Notes under the pieces: generated by a model
What the model was told of the DNA's origin: nothing
Database searches by the model: none
What the model saw: only the letters and a program-made list of their open reading frames with translations
Part shown: piece after piece, positions 16,355-23,433 of the stretch
How the letters are laid out: the number at the start of each line of letters is the position of its first letter
How positions within the stretch are numbered: the stretch's first letter is position 1
Made by a program: the position numbers and the translations under genes
NCBI RefSeq assembly: GCF_014712225.1
Contig: NZ_JACXBW010000003.1
Span: 186,001 to 250,000, forward strand
DNA: 64,000 nt
Direction of reading: 5' to 3'
Source of the DNA: Pseudarthrobacter sulfonivorans
Lineage (GTDB): Bacteria > Actinomycetota > Actinomycetes > Actinomycetales > Micrococcaceae

Positions 16355-18367
16355 TTAGTCGAGGCCGCGGCGCTTCAGCAGCGGCTCGAGCCTGGCGTCG
16401 CGTCCTCGGAGGGTGCGGAAGGAGTCCAGCGGGTCCCGGCTGTTGCCGCGGGACAGCAGTTCGTTGCGGAACCGTTCGCCGTTGGTCCGGTTCAGGCCAC
16501 CGTTTTCGGTGAACCAGTCAACGGTTTCAGCATCCAGGACCTCACTCCAAATGTAGGAATAGTAGCCGGCCGCGTACCCGTCGCCCGCGAAGATGTGCTG
16601 GAAGTAGCCGGTGCGGTAGCGCGGCGGAATCAGGGCATGGGCCACCCCTGCTGCGGCCAGTGATTTGGCCTCGAAGGCCAGCGCGTCGTCCGGGATTCCG
16701 GCTTCCTCCAGCACGTGCCAGGCCAGGTCAAGCAGCGCGGCTCCCAGGTACTCGGTGGTCGCGAAGCCCTCGCCCCACATCCGCGCCTCATTAAGCCGGT
16801 CCACGACGTCCTGCGGGAGGGGCTCGCCCGTTGTGTGGTGACGGGCATAATTGGCCAGCACGTCGGGCCAGAGGATCCACATCTCGTTGACCTGCGACGG
16901 GTATTCCACAAAGTCCCGGGGGACCGCAGTCCCGGAAAACCGCGGATACGTCACGTTGGAAAACAAGCCGTGGAGGGCGTGTCCGAACTCGTGGAACGTG
17001 GTGCGAAGCTCGTCCAGCGTCAGGAGTGTGGGTTCGCCTGCCGGCGGTTTGGAGATGTTGAGGTTGTTGATCACCACGGGCCGGGTGCCGTGCAGTTCTG
17101 ACTGGTCCACGAGCGAGTTCATCCATGCCCCGCCCCGCTTGGACTCGCGCGTGTAGTAGTCGCCCAGGAACAGTCCGAGTCCCGTTCCGTCCGGGTTTCG
17201 GACTTCCCAGACACGGACGTCCGGGTGGTAACCGGCCAGGTCAGCGCGTTCGTGGAAGGTGATGCCGTAGAGGGACGTGGCAGCGAAGAAGACGCCGTCC
17301 CGGAGAACGCGGTCCAGCTCGAAATAGGGGCGGAGCGCCTGCTCGTCCACTGCATACTTTTCCCGGCGCACTTTGGCAGAGTAGAACGCCCAGTCCCAGG
17401 CCTCCAGCGGATGCCCGGCAATCCCGGCCAGGGCGCCAGCCTCGGCGTCCGCATTGCGGACTGCCGCCGGCGCCAGCCTGTTCAGCATCGACCGCACCGC
17501 CTCAAAATCGGGGGCCGTTTGGCGGTCCACCACGAGTTCGGCGTAGTTCGCGAAACCAAGCAGTGCGGCTTTTTCAGCGCGAAGCCGAGCCATTGAGGTG
17601 ACCAGGTCCAGGACGTCCAGGCTGCCGCCGTCGCTGCCCCGGCCTGTGGAGGCCTCGAACAGCCGACGGCGGACGTTACGGTTTTCGAGGGCAGCCATAG
17701 CGGGCTGGTTGCTGGGCTGGATCAGTGTCAGCAGAAATTTGCCGTCGTGGCCGGCGGTGCGGGCAGCCTCGGCGGCGCTGGCGATATCGTCCGCCGGCAG
17801 GCCGGCCAGCTCCTCTGCGCTGTCCAACAACACAGCCGCCGACTTCATGCCCTCCTTGACACGCTGCCCGAACTCCGTGCCAAGTTTGGACAGTTCGGCA
17901 TTGATTCCCCTCAGCCTGTCCTGCCCGGGCTTATCAAGCTGGATCCCGGATTGGCGGAACTCCTTCAGGTACTCCGCCACGAGCCGGACAGACTCAGGGC
18001 CGAGTCCGGAGGTGTCGATTGCCATGAACCGGTCGAACAGCGAACGGTTGAGGTAGACCTCGTCCTGGTGGGCGGAAAAGCGAGGTGAAAGTTCGGTCTC
18101 AAGGTCAAGGATTTCCGCCGACGCGTCGGCCGAGACGAGGGTGAAGAAAGACGCAGCCGCCCGCTGGAGCAGTTGGCCGGCCCGCTCCATGGCGACGGCC
18201 GTGTTCTCGAACGTCGCAGCCGCAGGGCTGTCCACGATCGCCTGGATTTCGGCCAGATGTTCCGCAAGGCCCGCGGCCACGGCCTCGGCGTATTCGGAGG
18301 GTCCGATGTCGGCAAACGGCGGCAGCCCGTAGGGCAGGGCGCTGGGGCTGAGGAGGGGATTCGTCAT
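16355..18367 (-). CDS. M3 family zinc metallopeptidase (oligopeptidase/dipeptidyl carboxypeptidase type)
   Basis: This 670-residue M3 peptidase carries the zinc motif FHEFGHALHGL (HExxH variant HEFGH) about two thirds of the way along, followed by the third-ligand Glu region. A helical N-terminal half covers the substrate channel, and a RYRTGYFQHIFAGDGYAAGYYSY segment near the C terminus is typical of Dcp/OpdA. These enzymes degrade short peptides in the cytoplasm. There is no signal peptide. The ATG at 18367 has GAAAGG upstream. It stands alone, divergent from the CapA-like gene. Confidence 0.92.
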   Translation of the reverse strand: MTNPLLSPSALPYGLPPFADIGPSEYAEAVAAGLAEHLAEIQAIVDSPAAATFENTAVAMERAGQLLQRAAASFFTLVSADASAEILDLETELSPRFSAHQDEVYLNRSLFDRFMAIDTSGLGPESVRLVAEYLKEFRQSGIQLDKPGQDRLRGINAELSKLGTEFGQRVKEGMKSAAVLLDSAEELAGLPADDIASAAEAARTAGHDGKFLLTLIQPSNQPAMAALENRNVRRRLFEASTGRGSDGGSLDVLDLVTSMARLRAEKAALLGFANYAELVVDRQTAPDFEAVRSMLNRLAPAAVRNADAEAGALAGIAGHPLEAWDWAFYSAKVRREKYAVDEQALRPYFELDRVLRDGVFFAATSLYGITFHERADLAGYHPDVRVWEVRNPDGTGLGLFLGDYYTRESKRGGAWMNSLVDQSELHGTRPVVINNLNISKPPAGEPTLLTLDELRTTFHEFGHALHGLFSNVTYPRFSGTAVPRDFVEYPSQVNEMWILWPDVLANYARHHTTGEPLPQDVVDRLNEARMWGEGFATTEYLGAALLDLAWHVLEEAGIPDDALAFEAKSLAAAGVAHALIPPRYRTGYFQHIFAGDGYAAGYYSYIWSEVLDAETVDWFTENGGLNRTNGERFRNELLSRGNSRDPLDSFRTLRGRDARLEPLLKRRGLD

Positions 18368-18437: not shown

Positions 18438-18443
18438 TACAAT
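18438..18443 (+). promoter_or_regulatory. -10 element (TACAAT) placing a leaderless start at 18451
   Basis: TACAAT is a near-consensus -10 and ends 7 bases before the ATG at 18451. The alternative ATG at 18442 lies within this hexamer, so it is unlikely to be the real start. Confidence 0.5.
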
Positions 18444-18450
18444 GGCGCTT

Positions 18451-19698
18451 ATGGGGAACACACACGGCAGTGCGGCGCGCCGAATCGGGGCAGCCATCGG
18501 GGCTTTCACCCTGGCGGCGGTGCTCACTGCGTGCGGCCTGATTGCGGAACAAGGCCGGCCGTCCGCCACCGGAGTGTCGGGCGCGGCGTCAGAAGTGCAG
18601 AGCCCGACGGCGGCCCCCACGCCCACCCCCATCCCCACCCCGGGCGCGGGGCCTGCGTGTCCGACGCTGCGGTGCACATCCGTCCTGGTCACCGGCGACA
18701 TGCTGGTCCACGCCCAGCTCTGGCAGCAGGCCCGCGACGACGCCGCGGCGGCAGGAACGCCCGGCCTCGACTTTGTGCCACTCCTGGAAGGCCAGCGCCG
18801 GTACATCCGGAACAGCGATCTCGCCATCTGCCATCAGGAAACACCGGTCGCGGGGCCGGACGGACCATTTTCGGCCTACCCGTCGTTCAACGTCCCGCCG
18901 CAGATCATTGCAGCGTCCAAGAACGTGGGCTACCAGGCCTGCACCACCGCCAGCAACCACACGATCGACCGCAGCACTGACGGACTGCTGCGCACCCTGG
19001 ATGCACTGGACGCGGCAGGCCTCAAGCACACGGGTTCCTACCGGACGGAGGCCGAGTCGCAGGGAATCCTGATGATGCAGACGAAGGCCGCAAAAATCGC
19101 CGTCATTGAAGGAACCTACGGCCTCAACGGCCTGTCAGCAGAATACGGCTGGCAGGTGGACATGCTCGATGCGCCCACCATGATTGCCAAGGCCGTCAAA
19201 GCCAGGGCCCTTGGCGCGGACATCGTCCTGGGTGCCATGCACGCGGGGGAGGAATATGCCAGCGAGGCGAACGCCCAGCAGCAGGAAGTGGCCCACGCCC
19301 TGGTGGACAGCGGCCAATTCAGCATGATCTACGGCCACCACACGCATTCCGTGCTGCCGATCGAAAACTACAAGGGCACCTGGATCGTCTACGGTCTGGG
19401 CAACGGCGTCACTGAACTGTCGCCCTGGTACGTGGTGAACAACGAGGGGCTGCTGGTCCGCGCGCAGTTCAGCCAGGACGCGGCCGGCAACTGGACGGCG
19501 TCGGACCTCGCCTGGGCGCCGTCGGTGATTGTCCGTGATCCCTACCGGTGGTGCTCGGTCGCATCGGACGCCCCCCAAGGGGTCTGCGCAACCGCGGAAG
19601 CCGACGCGGCCACCAGACAGCGGACCGCCGCCGTCGTGGAGTCCCTGGGATCCGCGGCCGCAGGCGCCCACGAACTCTTGATCACCAAGGAACCGTAG
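18451..19698 (+). CDS. CapA family lipoprotein (PGA_cap metallophosphatase-like domain)
   Basis: The 415-residue product starts with a positively charged, hydrophobic signal and an LTAC lipobox at residues 25-28, so it is probably an outer-leaflet lipoprotein. A Pro/Thr-rich linker follows. The rest is the capsule synthesis CapA fold: LVTGDMLVH, NSDLAICHQETP, TTASNHTIDRSTDG, ADIVLGAMHAGEEY and YGHHTHSVLP. These metallophosphoesterase-like motifs place Asp, Asn and His at the metal site. CapA was defined for poly-gamma-glutamate export, but no other pga genes are here, so the substrate is unknown. The start at 18451 is chosen from the -10 position. Confidence 0.82.
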   Translation: MGNTHGSAARRIGAAIGAFTLAAVLTACGLIAEQGRPSATGVSGAASEVQSPTAAPTPTPIPTPGAGPACPTLRCTSVLVTGDMLVHAQLWQQARDDAAAAGTPGLDFVPLLEGQRRYIRNSDLAICHQETPVAGPDGPFSAYPSFNVPPQIIAASKNVGYQACTTASNHTIDRSTDGLLRTLDALDAAGLKHTGSYRTEAESQGILMMQTKAAKIAVIEGTYGLNGLSAEYGWQVDMLDAPTMIAKAVKARALGADIVLGAMHAGEEYASEANAQQQEVAHALVDSGQFSMIYGHHTHSVLPIENYKGTWIVYGLGNGVTELSPWYVVNNEGLLVRAQFSQDAAGNWTASDLAWAPSVIVRDPYRWCSVASDAPQGVCATAEADAATRQRTAAVVESLGSAAAGAHELLITKEP

Positions 19699-19829: not shown

Positions 19830-20582
19830 TCAGCGCGGGCGGCGGGCAGCGTGCTCGCGTGCCAGCACGGCGAACCGGTCATCCGGGGCGCCCGGCTCAA
19901 ATGTCCCAAACTTGCGCTCCGCGGCCGTCCGGATGAGAAAGTCGGCGATGGCGGGATTCTTCGGCAGCAGCGAACCGTGCAGGTAGCTGGCCACCACATT
20001 CTTGTAGCGCGCCCCCTCATGGCCGTCGCTGCTGTTGTTGCCGGTTCCTTTTGCCGTGGTCCCCAGCGGCCGGACGCCGGGGCCCAGCGTGGTTTGCCCG
20101 CTGTGGTTCTCGTAGCCCAGGATCTCGCCGAACTCCTCCGTGGCCACCTTGACGTTGCCGATCAGGCGCTCGTCCGTGCCCCGGGTTTCCACGTCCAGGA
20201 TGCCGATTCCGGGAATGACTGTGCCCAGGTGGGTCTTGAAAAAGCGGCCAAACAGTTGGTAAAGCCCGCAGATTGCCAGCATGGGCGCGCCGTCCTCTGC
20301 CAGTTCCTTCAGGAGGCCGGCGCGTGACTGAAGGTCGTCCTGAATGACCAGTTGCCCGCTGTCCTGCCCGCCGCCGCCCACGATCAGGTCCACGTCGGCG
20401 GGGAATTCGTCGCCCACGTTGTACTCGAGCAGCTCCGGCGTATAACCGTGCCAGCTGATCCGCTGCTTCAGGACCAGGGCGTTGCCCCAGTCACCGTAGA
20501 TGTTCATGTCCCGCGGATACAGCTGCAGGACGCGGATGGTGCCCTTGCTGCCCGACACGGCTCCGGCCGATTCAGCGGTCAT
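19830..20582 (-). CDS. gatD: Lipid II isoglutaminyl synthase, glutaminase subunit GatD
   Basis: This is a 250-residue class I glutamine amidotransferase of the CobB/CobQ type. The nucleophile is in LAICGLYQLFG and the catalytic His in SYLHGSLLPKNP, with IVGGGGQDSGQ and the GYENHSGQT segment also conserved. GatD supplies ammonia to MurT, which amidates the D-Glu of lipid II to D-isoglutamine. Its ATG overlaps the murT stop by 4 bases (ATGA). This heterodimer is essential in several Gram-positive species. The gene ends 131 bases from the convergent CapA-like gene. Confidence 0.93.
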   Translation of the reverse strand: MTAESAGAVSGSKGTIRVLQLYPRDMNIYGDWGNALVLKQRISWHGYTPELLEYNVGDEFPADVDLIVGGGGQDSGQLVIQDDLQSRAGLLKELAEDGAPMLAICGLYQLFGRFFKTHLGTVIPGIGILDVETRGTDERLIGNVKVATEEFGEILGYENHSGQTTLGPGVRPLGTTAKGTGNNSSDGHEGARYKNVVASYLHGSLLPKNPAIADFLIRTAAERKFGTFEPGAPDDRFAVLAREHAARRPR

Positions 20583-21871
20583 GAGACCACCTCCACTGTG
20601 GTGATTTTGGACAGCTCCCGGCGGATGGCCAGCATGGCTGTGTAGGTGCAGAAAATCCGTTTCGGCTTGCCGCTGCCCTCGCGGATGAAGGCGGCCAGGG
20701 CTGGGGCGATGTCTGGCTGGACCGCGCCGATCCGAACCTCGTCGTACTGCAGCCGCAGCGCCATGTCGTACGCCCGCGACCCGGTCAACTGGTCCACGCC
20801 GCCGTCGCGGAGGGAATCAAATTCCACGTCCCAGAGCCAGGACATGTCCCTGCCGTCGGCGTAGTTGTCGTTGATGGCGATCATGGTTGCGTAACCGGCG
20901 GCCGGGAAGGACTTCAGCCCGAGCCGGAAACCGCTGGGGTTCTTGACCAGCACGAGGTCCAGGGGCTGGCCGTCAACGGTGAGGCTTTCGCCGCGGCCGA
21001 AGGCCGGCTCGACCTGGGACAGGGCGGTCAGCAGCGTCGCGTGGTCGGCCGTCGCCGCACCCCCGCCGCAGATGCTGCGCGCAAGTGCCAGCGCGGCCGC
21101 GGCATTGAAGATGTTGTAGACGCCGCGGAGCTTCATCGCGGTGGTGACGGTGACGCCGTCGTACTCAAAATCCGCGGTGTCCGGTCCTACCTTGCGGAGT
21201 ACGACGTCGGCCGCCGGCTTGTGGGGGAGCGCCGCGGGGGCGGGGCTGCCGGGCGCTGCGCGCATGTCGTCGTCGTTGGGGAAGGTGCTGAGGAGGGAAT
21301 CGTCCAGCCCGAAGTACTGGACGTCCTGCCCGGTGAGGGTGTCCGCGATGCGGGCAACGCGGGGGTCCTCGCGGTTGAGGACCACCGTGCCGGTGGTTTT
21401 CGCCGCGATGTGGTGCAGGAGCTGGGCCGTTTTGTCGATCTCGCCGAACCGGTCCAGCTGGTCCCGCAGGACGTTGAGCAGGAGGCTGTAGCGGGGCGGG
21501 ACACGGTTGACGAAATGGACTGCGTGGGCTTCGTCGAGTTCCAGGACGGCGACGTCGGCCCTGAGCCTGCCGCGCCAGTCCACCTCGCCGAGCAGGGCGG
21601 CCGCCACGCCGCGGGTGAAGTTGCTGCCGGTGCGGTTGGTGAAGACCTTCAGGCCCTGGCTTTCGAGGAGCTCAACCACCATCTTGGTGGTGGTGGTTTT
21701 GCCGTTGGTTCCGCTCACCACGGCCACACCGTGGGGGAGCGTGGCGAGTGTCCGCTGCATAAAGCCGGGGTCGATCTTTTCGACCACCAGCCCGGGCAGG
21801 GCGGACCCGCCACCCCTGAGCCGGGACACCCGGCGGACGAGCTTGCCGAGCGGAACGCTGATGTAAAGCAT
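20579..21871 (-). CDS. murT: Lipid II isoglutaminyl synthase, Mur ligase-like subunit MurT
   Basis: This 430-residue Mur ligase-type protein has the ATP motif [45 protein letters not shown], and the C-terminal [18 protein letters not shown] of the DUF1727 domain. It activates lipid II D-Glu with ATP for amidation by GatD ammonia. In characterised MurT proteins a four-cysteine zinc ribbon is inserted in the middle domain. Here the equivalent region (about residues 190-245) has none, and the whole protein has only two cysteines. The ATG at 21871 lacks a Shine-Dalgarno site but follows TATATT by 7 bases. A longer frame upstream has no family similarity. Confidence 0.93.
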
Positions 21872-21884: not shown

Positions 21885-21951
21885 TCCCAGCAACGGCATG
21901 GAACCCTGCCCGGAGCGGGGCCGCCCGCACGGTCCGGCGCCGGGGGCACAT

Positions 21952-21957
21952 TATGCT
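21952..21957 (+). promoter_or_regulatory. -10 element (TATGCT) for leaderless pdxT mRNA
   Basis: TATGCT ends 6 bases before the pdxT ATG at 21964, again without a Shine-Dalgarno site. The 92-base gap thus seems to hold two divergent leaderless promoters. Confidence 0.45.
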
Positions 21958-21963
21958 GAATGG

Positions 21964-22674
21964 ATGACAAACCCCCTTTCTGCCGCTTCCGCACGCGTGG
22001 GCGCAGGCCTGAAGATCGGCGTCCTGGCGCTCCAGGGCGACTTCCGTGAACACCTGCGCGCCGTGGAAGCATCAGGTGCGGCCGGCGTCGGAATCCGCAG
22101 GCCCCAGGAACTGGATGGCCTGGACGGGCTTATCATTCCCGGCGGCGAATCCACAGCCATCGACAAGCTGGCCCGCGCCTTTGAACTGGCCGGGCCCCTG
22201 AAGGACCGCATCCGTGACGGACTGCCGGTCTACGGTTCCTGCGCCGGCATGATCCTCCTGGCCAACGACATCGCCGACCCAGCCACCGACTTGGCCGGCA
22301 ACCCGCAGCAGACCTTCGGCGGCCTGGATATTACGGTGCGGCGTAACGCGTTCGGCCGGCAGCGGGAATCGTTCGAAACCGACCTGGATTTCAAGAGCCT
22401 GGACTTCAGCGCGACCGAATCCGGGGTGGCTCCCGTCCACGCCGTGTTCATCCGCGGCCCCTGGGTGGAGCGTGTCGGCGCCGGCGTGGAGGTACTCGCC
22501 CAGGTGGAGCCGGCGGATCCTGAACATGCGTCCCACGCGGCGAGCCTGCCCGGGACAGCTAGAATTGTTGCAGTGCGTTCCGGCCACCTGCTGGCCACCT
22601 CCTTCCACCCGGAAGTGACTGGGGAGAAACGCGTACATGAACTTTTTATCCGGATGATCAGAGGAGACGCGTAA
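21964..22674 (+). CDS. pdxT: Pyridoxal 5'-phosphate synthase glutaminase subunit PdxT
   Basis: This 236-residue class I glutaminase has the motifs [27 protein letters not shown], the nucleophile in [13 protein letters not shown] and a C-terminal [17 protein letters not shown] with the catalytic His/Glu. It feeds ammonia to PdxS. An insertion or longer stretch before the C terminus ([17 protein letters not shown]) makes it somewhat longer than the roughly 200-residue norm. It is divergent from murT and closely followed by yebC (3-base gap), so the two are likely cotranscribed. Confidence 0.95.
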
Positions 22675-22677
22675 AGC

Positions 22678-23433
22678 ATGTCAGGCCACTCCAAATGGGC
22701 AACAACCAAGCACAAAAAGGCCATCCTTGATAGCCGCCGTGCCAAATCGTTCGCCAAGCTGATCAAGAACATCGAAGTTGCTGCCCGCATGGGCGGACCG
22801 GACCTTCAGGGCAACCCGGGACTGGAACTGGCCGTCACCAAGGCCAAAAAGACCTCGGTCCCCGCCGACAACATTGACCGCGCCATCAAGCGCGGCGCCG
22901 GCCTGACCGGTGAAGTGGTTGACTACACCGAGATCATGTACGAATGCCGCGGCCCGCAAGGCTCCGCGCTGCTGATCGAGTGCCTGACCGACAACAAGAA
23001 CCGTGCGGCCTCCGAGGTCCGTCTGGCGATTTCCCGCAACGGCGGCACCATCGCCGATCCCGGTTCGGTCAGCTACCTCTTCAGCCGCAAGGGCGTGGTC
23101 TCGCTGCCCAAGAAGGAACTTACGGAGGACGACGTCCTGATGGCAGTCCTCGACGCGGGTGCCGAGGAAGTCAAGGACAACGGCGACACCTTCGAAATCC
23201 ACTCGGAACCGACGGACCTCCAGGCTGTCCGCGACGCCCTCAAAGCGGCCGAAATCGAGTACGACACCGATGAAGCGGAGTTCGTTCCCTCGATGGTGGT
23301 GCCGCTCGACCTGGAAGCCGCCAAGAAGTTCATGAAGCTGGTTGACGCACTGGAAGAGCTCGACGACGTCCAGAACGTCTACAGCAACGCCGACCTTAGC
23401 GACGAAGTCCAGGCCGCCCTGGAATCTGAGTGA
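22678..23433 (+). CDS. yebC: YebC/PmpR family protein (TACO1-like)
   Basis: This 251-residue protein starts [19 protein letters not shown], the family signature, followed by [32 protein letters not shown] and [15 protein letters not shown]. YebC proteins have been described as DNA-binding regulators and, more recently, as ribosome-associated factors helping translation of proline stretches, so either role is possible. It lies directly after pdxT and before ruvC, the usual actinobacterial order. AGAGGAGA precedes its ATG. Confidence 0.93.

Follow-up and report, generated by a model that had tools for sequence, protein, structure and literature searches.

Results

The murT/gatD locus

The window, by which we mean the whole 64,000-nucleotide stretch of Pseudarthrobacter sulfonivorans DNA analysed here, carries a murT/gatD pair on the minus strand between genes of other kinds. 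The features of the region are as follows.

16355-18367, minus strand: M3 peptidase, a neighbour
18442-19698, plus strand: protein with a PGA_cap domain (capsule synthesis type), convergent to gatD
19830-20582, minus strand: gatD, 250 amino acids, the glutaminase partner (Pfam GATase_3), overlapping the end of murT in an ATGA
19977-19979, minus strand: GatD His202, the catalytic histidine, present
20268-20270, minus strand: GatD Cys105, the glutaminase nucleophile, present
20508-20513, minus strand: GatD Arg24-Asp25, equivalent to S. pneumoniae Asn25-Leu26, facing the ribbon base
20579-21871, minus strand: murT, 430 amino acids, ligase subunit of lipid II isoglutaminyl synthase, Cys4 ribbon absent
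20648-20650, minus strand: MurT Cys408 (in RIFCTY), beyond the ribbon region
21068-21070, minus strand: MurT Cys268 (in SICGGG), beyond the ribbon region
21206-21304, minus strand: MurT residues 190-222, a linker in the zinc ribbon's place according to alignments and model
21260-21283, minus strand: FPNDDDMR, MurT residues 197-204, the proposed acidic gate, a role that is putative
21464-21466, minus strand: MurT Arg136, counterpart of S. pneumoniae Arg135
21898-22674, plus strand: PdxT/SNO glutaminase, a neighbour
22678-23433, plus strand: YebC, a neighbour

The first-pass annotation of this DNA had placed murT correctly at 20579-21871 without naming a strand. By Pfam, the protein combines the Mur ligase middle domain (Mur_ligase_M, residues 52-264, 63 bits against a cut-off of 24) with the MurT C-terminal domain (MurT_C, residues 308-413, 83.9 bits against a cut-off of 25). 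It also has the P-loop lysine (Lys58), the Glu/Asp residues of the metal site (Glu111, Asp113 and Glu114) and the C-terminal aspartate (Asp342), the counterpart of S. aureus Asp349 in the proposed triad, and its gene adjoins a gatD that encodes both glutaminase residues, Cys105 and His202. The top NCBIfam model for the window MurT, NF045635, scored 180 bits, far short of its equivalog cut-off of 800; judged from the score level, the cut-off appears to fit Bacillota-like MurT. The NCBIfam GatD model was likewise the top match for the window GatD, at 170 bits against a cut-off of 400. The nearest PDB sequences to both proteins are the streptococcal and S. aureus MurT and GatD.

All 62 ribbonless rows of our alignment, the window MurT included, retain eight catalytic positions (Lys58, Glu111, Asp113, Glu114, Asn133, Arg141, Asn311 and Asp342), which bears out the earlier view that the active-site motifs are intact. 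The genome (4.93 Mb in 58 contigs) has one clear MurT; two weaker matches, at E 3e-5 and 1.5e-4, correspond to other open reading frames. Among the best 80 loci of 236 GTDB relatives, the nearest named MurT record is that of Pseudarthrobacter polychromogenes, at 92% identity.

A short linker in place of the zinc ribbon

The four-cysteine insertion that follows strand 6 of the middle domain is missing from the window MurT. Residues 184-250 contain no cysteine and a single histidine, His217, and the protein's only two cysteines, Cys268 and Cys408, lie away from the ribbon region, as had been noticed in the first reading of the sequence together with the Pro/Ala/Asp-rich character of the equivalent stretch, which spans 26 residues.

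An AlphaFold2 monomer model of the window MurT, built with a 44-row alignment (mean pLDDT 89.6, pTM 0.90), predicts a short helix at residues 200-204 and then an irregular chain, with pLDDT below 50 at residues 208-210, until a strand at 223-228. A control model from the same rows, headed by the ribbon-bearing sequence L198 (mean pLDDT 92.0), has strands in the ribbon stretch at residues 219-224 and 228-232, so the modelling method is able to reveal a ribbon; as far as these predictions go, the window MurT has no strands at the ribbon site. In a fold search of the model against PDB chains, the top matches were the MurT proteins of S. pyogenes, with a Z score of 31.0 (3.4 A across 353 residues), and of S. 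pneumoniae, with 29.9. These were closely followed by cyanophycin synthetase (Z 29.1), MurC (Z 28.9) and the S. aureus MurT (Z 28.8; rmsd 7.4 across 353 residues). Since S. pneumoniae MurT is level with cyanophycin synthetase and near MurC, the search confirms the Mur-ligase fold and does not single out MurT identity.

Ribbon states among MurT proteins

MurT was sought in the phylum of the window (137 of 296 genomes matched), in its class by Pfam MurT_C (102 of 197), in its order (46 of 119) and in its family (28 of 80, and again 28 of 80 by Pfam). Each genome search contributed its best-matching loci up to a ceiling of 30, which makes the locus sample uneven, and 80 further regions were picked by hand, in addition to the best GTDB loci mentioned above. 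Before alignment we set aside copies of the window (L001 and L063), short or partial sequences (L011, L060, L105, L185 and L254), low scorers (L003 and L259), the matchless L002, and rows that repeated an earlier key stretch, among them Kocuria L193. Viral contigs were scanned as well, and nothing was found in them. The figures for order and family give murT a patchy distribution; the murT/gatD operon has been called universal in Actinobacteria (PMC6085368).

When ribbon classes were assigned with text patterns of our own making, 129 of the 247 aligned MurT rows had a four-cysteine ribbon, 28 had the first CxxC pair with a broken second pair, 28 kept a ribbon frame with few cysteines (Mycobacteriales type), and 62 were ribbonless. 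Named rows with four cysteines come from Streptomyces, Kitasatospora, Micromonospora, Saccharopolyspora, Amycolatopsis, Clostridium and cyanobacteria. Seven named rows of Mycobacterium, Mycolicibacterium, Mycolicibacter, Rhodococcus and Gordonia have one cysteine within a retained frame, and Corynebacterium rows have no or one ribbon cysteine. Named ribbonless rows belong to Pseudarthrobacter, Arthrobacter, Kocuria, Bifidobacterium, Actinomyces, Candidatus Ancillula and three Saccharibacteria MAGs. In the family of the window, 25 of the 28 MurT-bearing genomes lack the ribbon, and its absence in the window MurT is thus neither a single-genome oddity nor a sequencing slip.

The first-pass annotation had treated a MurT without the zinc-ribbon cysteines as a departure from characterised MurT proteins, to be given up if the cysteines proved to be absent throughout the actinobacterial family. 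They are absent throughout the lineage of the window but not throughout Actinomycetota at large, where the named Streptomyces, Kitasatospora and Micromonospora rows have all four. The exceptional status falls away, given the 62 ribbonless rows and two papers of 2018, one stating that the tetrad is present in "some Actinobacteria" and replaced in Oenococcus, Weissella and Leuconostoc (PMC6085368), the other that the zinc finger apparently occurs in only "a subset" of the bacteria with these genes (PMC6113224).

The survey also turned up several variants. The MurT proteins of Mycobacteriales and Corynebacterium (L025, L067, L229, L236, L224, L235 and others) form one tree clade in which the frame CPR[ST]G...FxRP is kept and most of the cysteines are replaced. 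Three-cysteine ribbons, with the fourth replaced within CPxGDF or CPNNDF, occur in L015, L107, L108 and L199, on more than one branch. The other three MurT-bearing genomes of the window's family (L102, L103 and L104) all belong to one genus, g331, and carry a different MurT with four cysteines. It is of the main actinobacterial type and shares about 37% identity with the window MurT, which suggests gene replacement. The MAGs titled Saccharibacteria (L190, L194 and L197) carry a ribbonless MurT of actinobacterial type, at 62, 51 and 43% identity, together with GatD; transfer from host-like Actinomycetota is possible, as is mis-binning.

Phylogeny of the ribbonless lineage

Trees were built from hand-picked sets of 116, 57 and 40 rows, the largest from MurT minus the ribbon region combined with GatD minus three interface columns. 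In the 116-row tree the window MurT falls inside a clade of 40 rows, all ribbonless (SH-aLRT 100), and in the 40-row tree the 17 ribbonless rows of this clade hold together with support of 100/100. Placed beside the clade (100/99) are the ribbonless L007 and three sequences, L107, L108 and L198, with a long ribbon as in Bacillota and Chloroflexota rows. Because these nearest outside rows include ribbon-bearing sequences, loss of the ribbon is indicated. The ribbonless state changes three times on the 116-row tree and twice on the smaller ones, the changes falling on the main clade, on the Daviesbacteria-like pair L200 and L206, and perhaps on L007. A single loss may account for the main clade, with the nearby ribbonless L007 of uncertain placement. 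The absence of the ribbon is likely to be an old trait of the whole lineage, the result of losing the entire module. L200 and L206, from a Daviesbacteria MAG and from a relative, are ribbonless on a separate branch, have no acidic motif and leave the GatD Asp-Leu unchanged.

As to where the lineage came from, the free trees place the main actinobacterial rows apart from the window clade, and we favour descent from a Bacillota/Chloroflexota-like MurT that shed its long ribbon. We dropped this origin as a firm claim, since an AU test in which the window clade and the main actinobacterial rows were forced into one group did not reject that grouping (p 0.205). The same test is what speaks for the alternative, vertical inheritance of the main actinobacterial MurT with loss of a short ribbon along the way. 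We consider that history unlikely, though it deserves some weight, since it runs against the separation in the free trees, against the long ribbon of the neighbours L107, L108 and L198, and against the strand before the ribbon, which is YFG-like as in Bacillota rows, whereas the main actinobacterial rows are VWV-like.

The acidic gate and the MurT-GatD interface

In S. pneumoniae, Glu201 of the insertion forms a bridge with Arg135 where an acidic opening faces GatD, and hydrophobic residues of the insertion contact GatD Leu6, Asn25, Leu26, Ile36, Ile54, Leu57 and Phe77 (PMC6085368). The residues of these hydrophobic surfaces are described there as unconserved, except Trp360 with GatD Gly34. 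With serine in place of the four cysteines, 23% of the activity remained, the association with GatD was affected, and the change was not tolerated in vivo (PMC6085368), which indicates that the ribbon matters where it is present. When the S. pneumoniae numbering was transferred through alignments of the PDB sequences, Arg135, Asp355, Trp360 and Asp361 were found to be retained in the window MurT as Arg136, Asp342, Trp347 and Asp348; in the window GatD, Asn25-Leu26 is replaced by Arg24-Asp25 and Phe77 by Ser75.

An acidic residue stands four positions ahead of the first ribbon cysteine in 182 of the 185 rows with a ribbon or frame. Among the 62 ribbonless rows, 47 have the linker motif F[PLR]xD[DEN], which in the form found in the window reads FPxDD(D/E), and 56 keep Arg136. 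Arg136 is missing from six rows, each of the f4 type described below, and these lack the acidic motif as well; nine other motif-less rows retain the arginine, so the pairing of motif and Arg136 is not strict. To judge from this pattern of residues, the acidic gate may have outlived the ribbon by way of the FPxDD(D/E) motif.

GatD position 25 is Asp or Glu in 53 of the 62 ribbonless rows and Leu or Val in 154 of the 170 other rows with GatD (a usable GatD was missing at 15 of 246 loci). We considered whether this change compensates for loss of the ribbon and rejected the idea. The ribbon-bearing L107, L108 and L198 also have Glu at this position, and a test by independent pairs of GatD position 25 against ribbon loss gave no support (two pairs, none in the same direction), so the GatD change is best regarded as a trait of the lineage. 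It is possible that this trait made the loss of the ribbon tolerable.

A related family whose GatD lacks the nucleophile

In one family of the window's order, f4, represented by 79 genera in the sample, 63 of 80 genomes have a fast-evolving MurT that falls inside the ribbonless clade. The 40-row tree groups f4 with f3 (96/92), and the long branches make its position inside the clade less sure. The nucleophilic cysteine of GatD is lost in all 35 rows examined, being replaced by Gly in 23, Ala in 11 and Ser in one. These rows (L008, L009, L010, L055, L122, L203 and L270-L298) represent 33 distinct genomes, of which 32 belong to f4 (30 of them among the 63 that bear MurT) and one is a MAG. Six of them entered the main alignment; there they retain MurT Lys58, Glu111, Asp113, Glu114, Asn133 and Asp342 but differ at other gate residues. 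From the number of genera, the order and genome sizes down to 0.9 Mb, f4 is probably Microbacteriaceae.

Discussion

The window MurT is probably best explained as the ligase subunit of an otherwise ordinary MurT/GatD lipid II isoglutaminyl synthase, from a lineage whose ancestor lost the whole ribbon insertion, with a linker that keeps the acidic gate without a metal. GatD would hydrolyse glutamine, and MurT would activate the alpha-carboxyl of D-Glu with ATP and add the ammonia to yield D-isoglutamine in peptidoglycan; the short FPxDD(D/E) linker would form a metal-free acidic gate beside the retained Arg136. Since the ribbon is missing, no Cys/His cluster takes its place and the active site is intact, zinc at the ribbon site is unlikely and activity without zinc there is likely, so far as sequence can indicate. 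To this extent the interpretation offered in the first-pass annotation stands, and what does not survive is the idea of an exception, since the trait is lineage-wide and had been sketched in print.

The state of the linker bears on two ways in which a ribbon or a metal might persist. A ribbon fold could be kept in metal-free form, a state that does exist in the 28 rows of Mycobacterium, Rhodococcus, Gordonia, Corynebacterium and their relatives. We tried the window MurT as a degenerate ribbon of this Mycobacteriales type and rejected it, for its linker has no frame (neither a CP..G knuckle nor FxRP) and its model, unlike the L198 control, shows no ribbon strands, which makes this reading highly improbable. 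It is scarcely more probable that Asp200-202 and His217 bind zinc or another metal at the ribbon site. Although the linker does hold one histidine and a conserved cluster of aspartates, His217 lies in its variable part, cysteine is absent, and the chain is predicted to be disordered past residue 204. A different question is whether the pair still makes D-isoglutamine, given that GatD has lost its nucleophile in a related family of the same clade. A change of product seems very doubtful for the window pair, in which GatD Cys105 and His202 and MurT Asp342 are intact.

The window MurT has in common with S. aureus MurT/GatD (PDB 6gs2, 6h5e and 7q8e; PMC6113224) the two-domain Mur-ligase fold, the catalytic residues and the adjoining gatD, but the S. 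aureus structure has a Cys4 ribbon with zinc and the window protein has none. The closest solved folds are those of S. pneumoniae (PDB 6fqb; PMC6085368) and S. pyogenes (9sqj and 9sq9), at Z scores from 29.9 to 31.0. Where S. pneumoniae MurT meets GatD through a cysteine-rich, ribbon-like insertion (PMC6085368), the window protein has a short linker, and the partner's Asn-Leu is replaced by Arg-Asp. The S. pneumoniae crystal showed no metal, and disulfides were modelled (PMC6085368). MurT of the mycobacterial type (Rv3712; PMC8210147), represented here by seven named rows, also has no usable set of four cysteines, having a single one, yet these rows keep the ribbon frame and lie on another branch of the tree.

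In view of the two 2018 statements on the limited occurrence of the tetrad and zinc finger, the absence of the ribbon as such is already anticipated in print. M. tuberculosis MurT has been reported to be an ATPase (PMC8210147); a word search of the accessible text of that paper and of PMC10484409 found neither zinc nor cysteine, and the MurT phylogeny of PMC11915815 is, in its accessible text, likewise presented without them. Judging by titles and the openings of abstracts in a mostly open literature, we found no paper on ribbonless MurT, its lineage or its linker.

Antibacterial work has taken MurT/GatD as a target, and the interface of its subunits is where the ribbon lies. A natural lineage that has only a short, conserved replacement shows for what purposes the ribbon is dispensable and indicates that the acidic gate is the part worth keeping. 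It also cautions against taking the zinc site as family-wide.

The natural reading of the f4 pair, from the residues lost and kept, would be a ligase without a glutaminase. Microbacteriaceae are known for B-type peptidoglycan, in which the cross-link starts at the alpha-carboxyl of D-Glu. It is possible, if somewhat speculative, that new chemistry became accessible to the lineage once the ribbon was lost and the MurT-GatD face rewired, and that the f4 pair may join an amino acid (glycine or a D-diamino acid) instead of ammonia to the alpha-carboxyl of D-Glu and so start the B-type cross-link. If true, these relatives with a dead glutaminase would supply the gene for the first step of that cross-link, a prediction that is directly testable. 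Among the titles in a mostly open literature, we found none on a MurT-type D-Glu ligase of B-type walls. Peptidoglycan of the B2 types is on record for Rhodoluna and Clavibacter (PMC4156110, PMC5358740).
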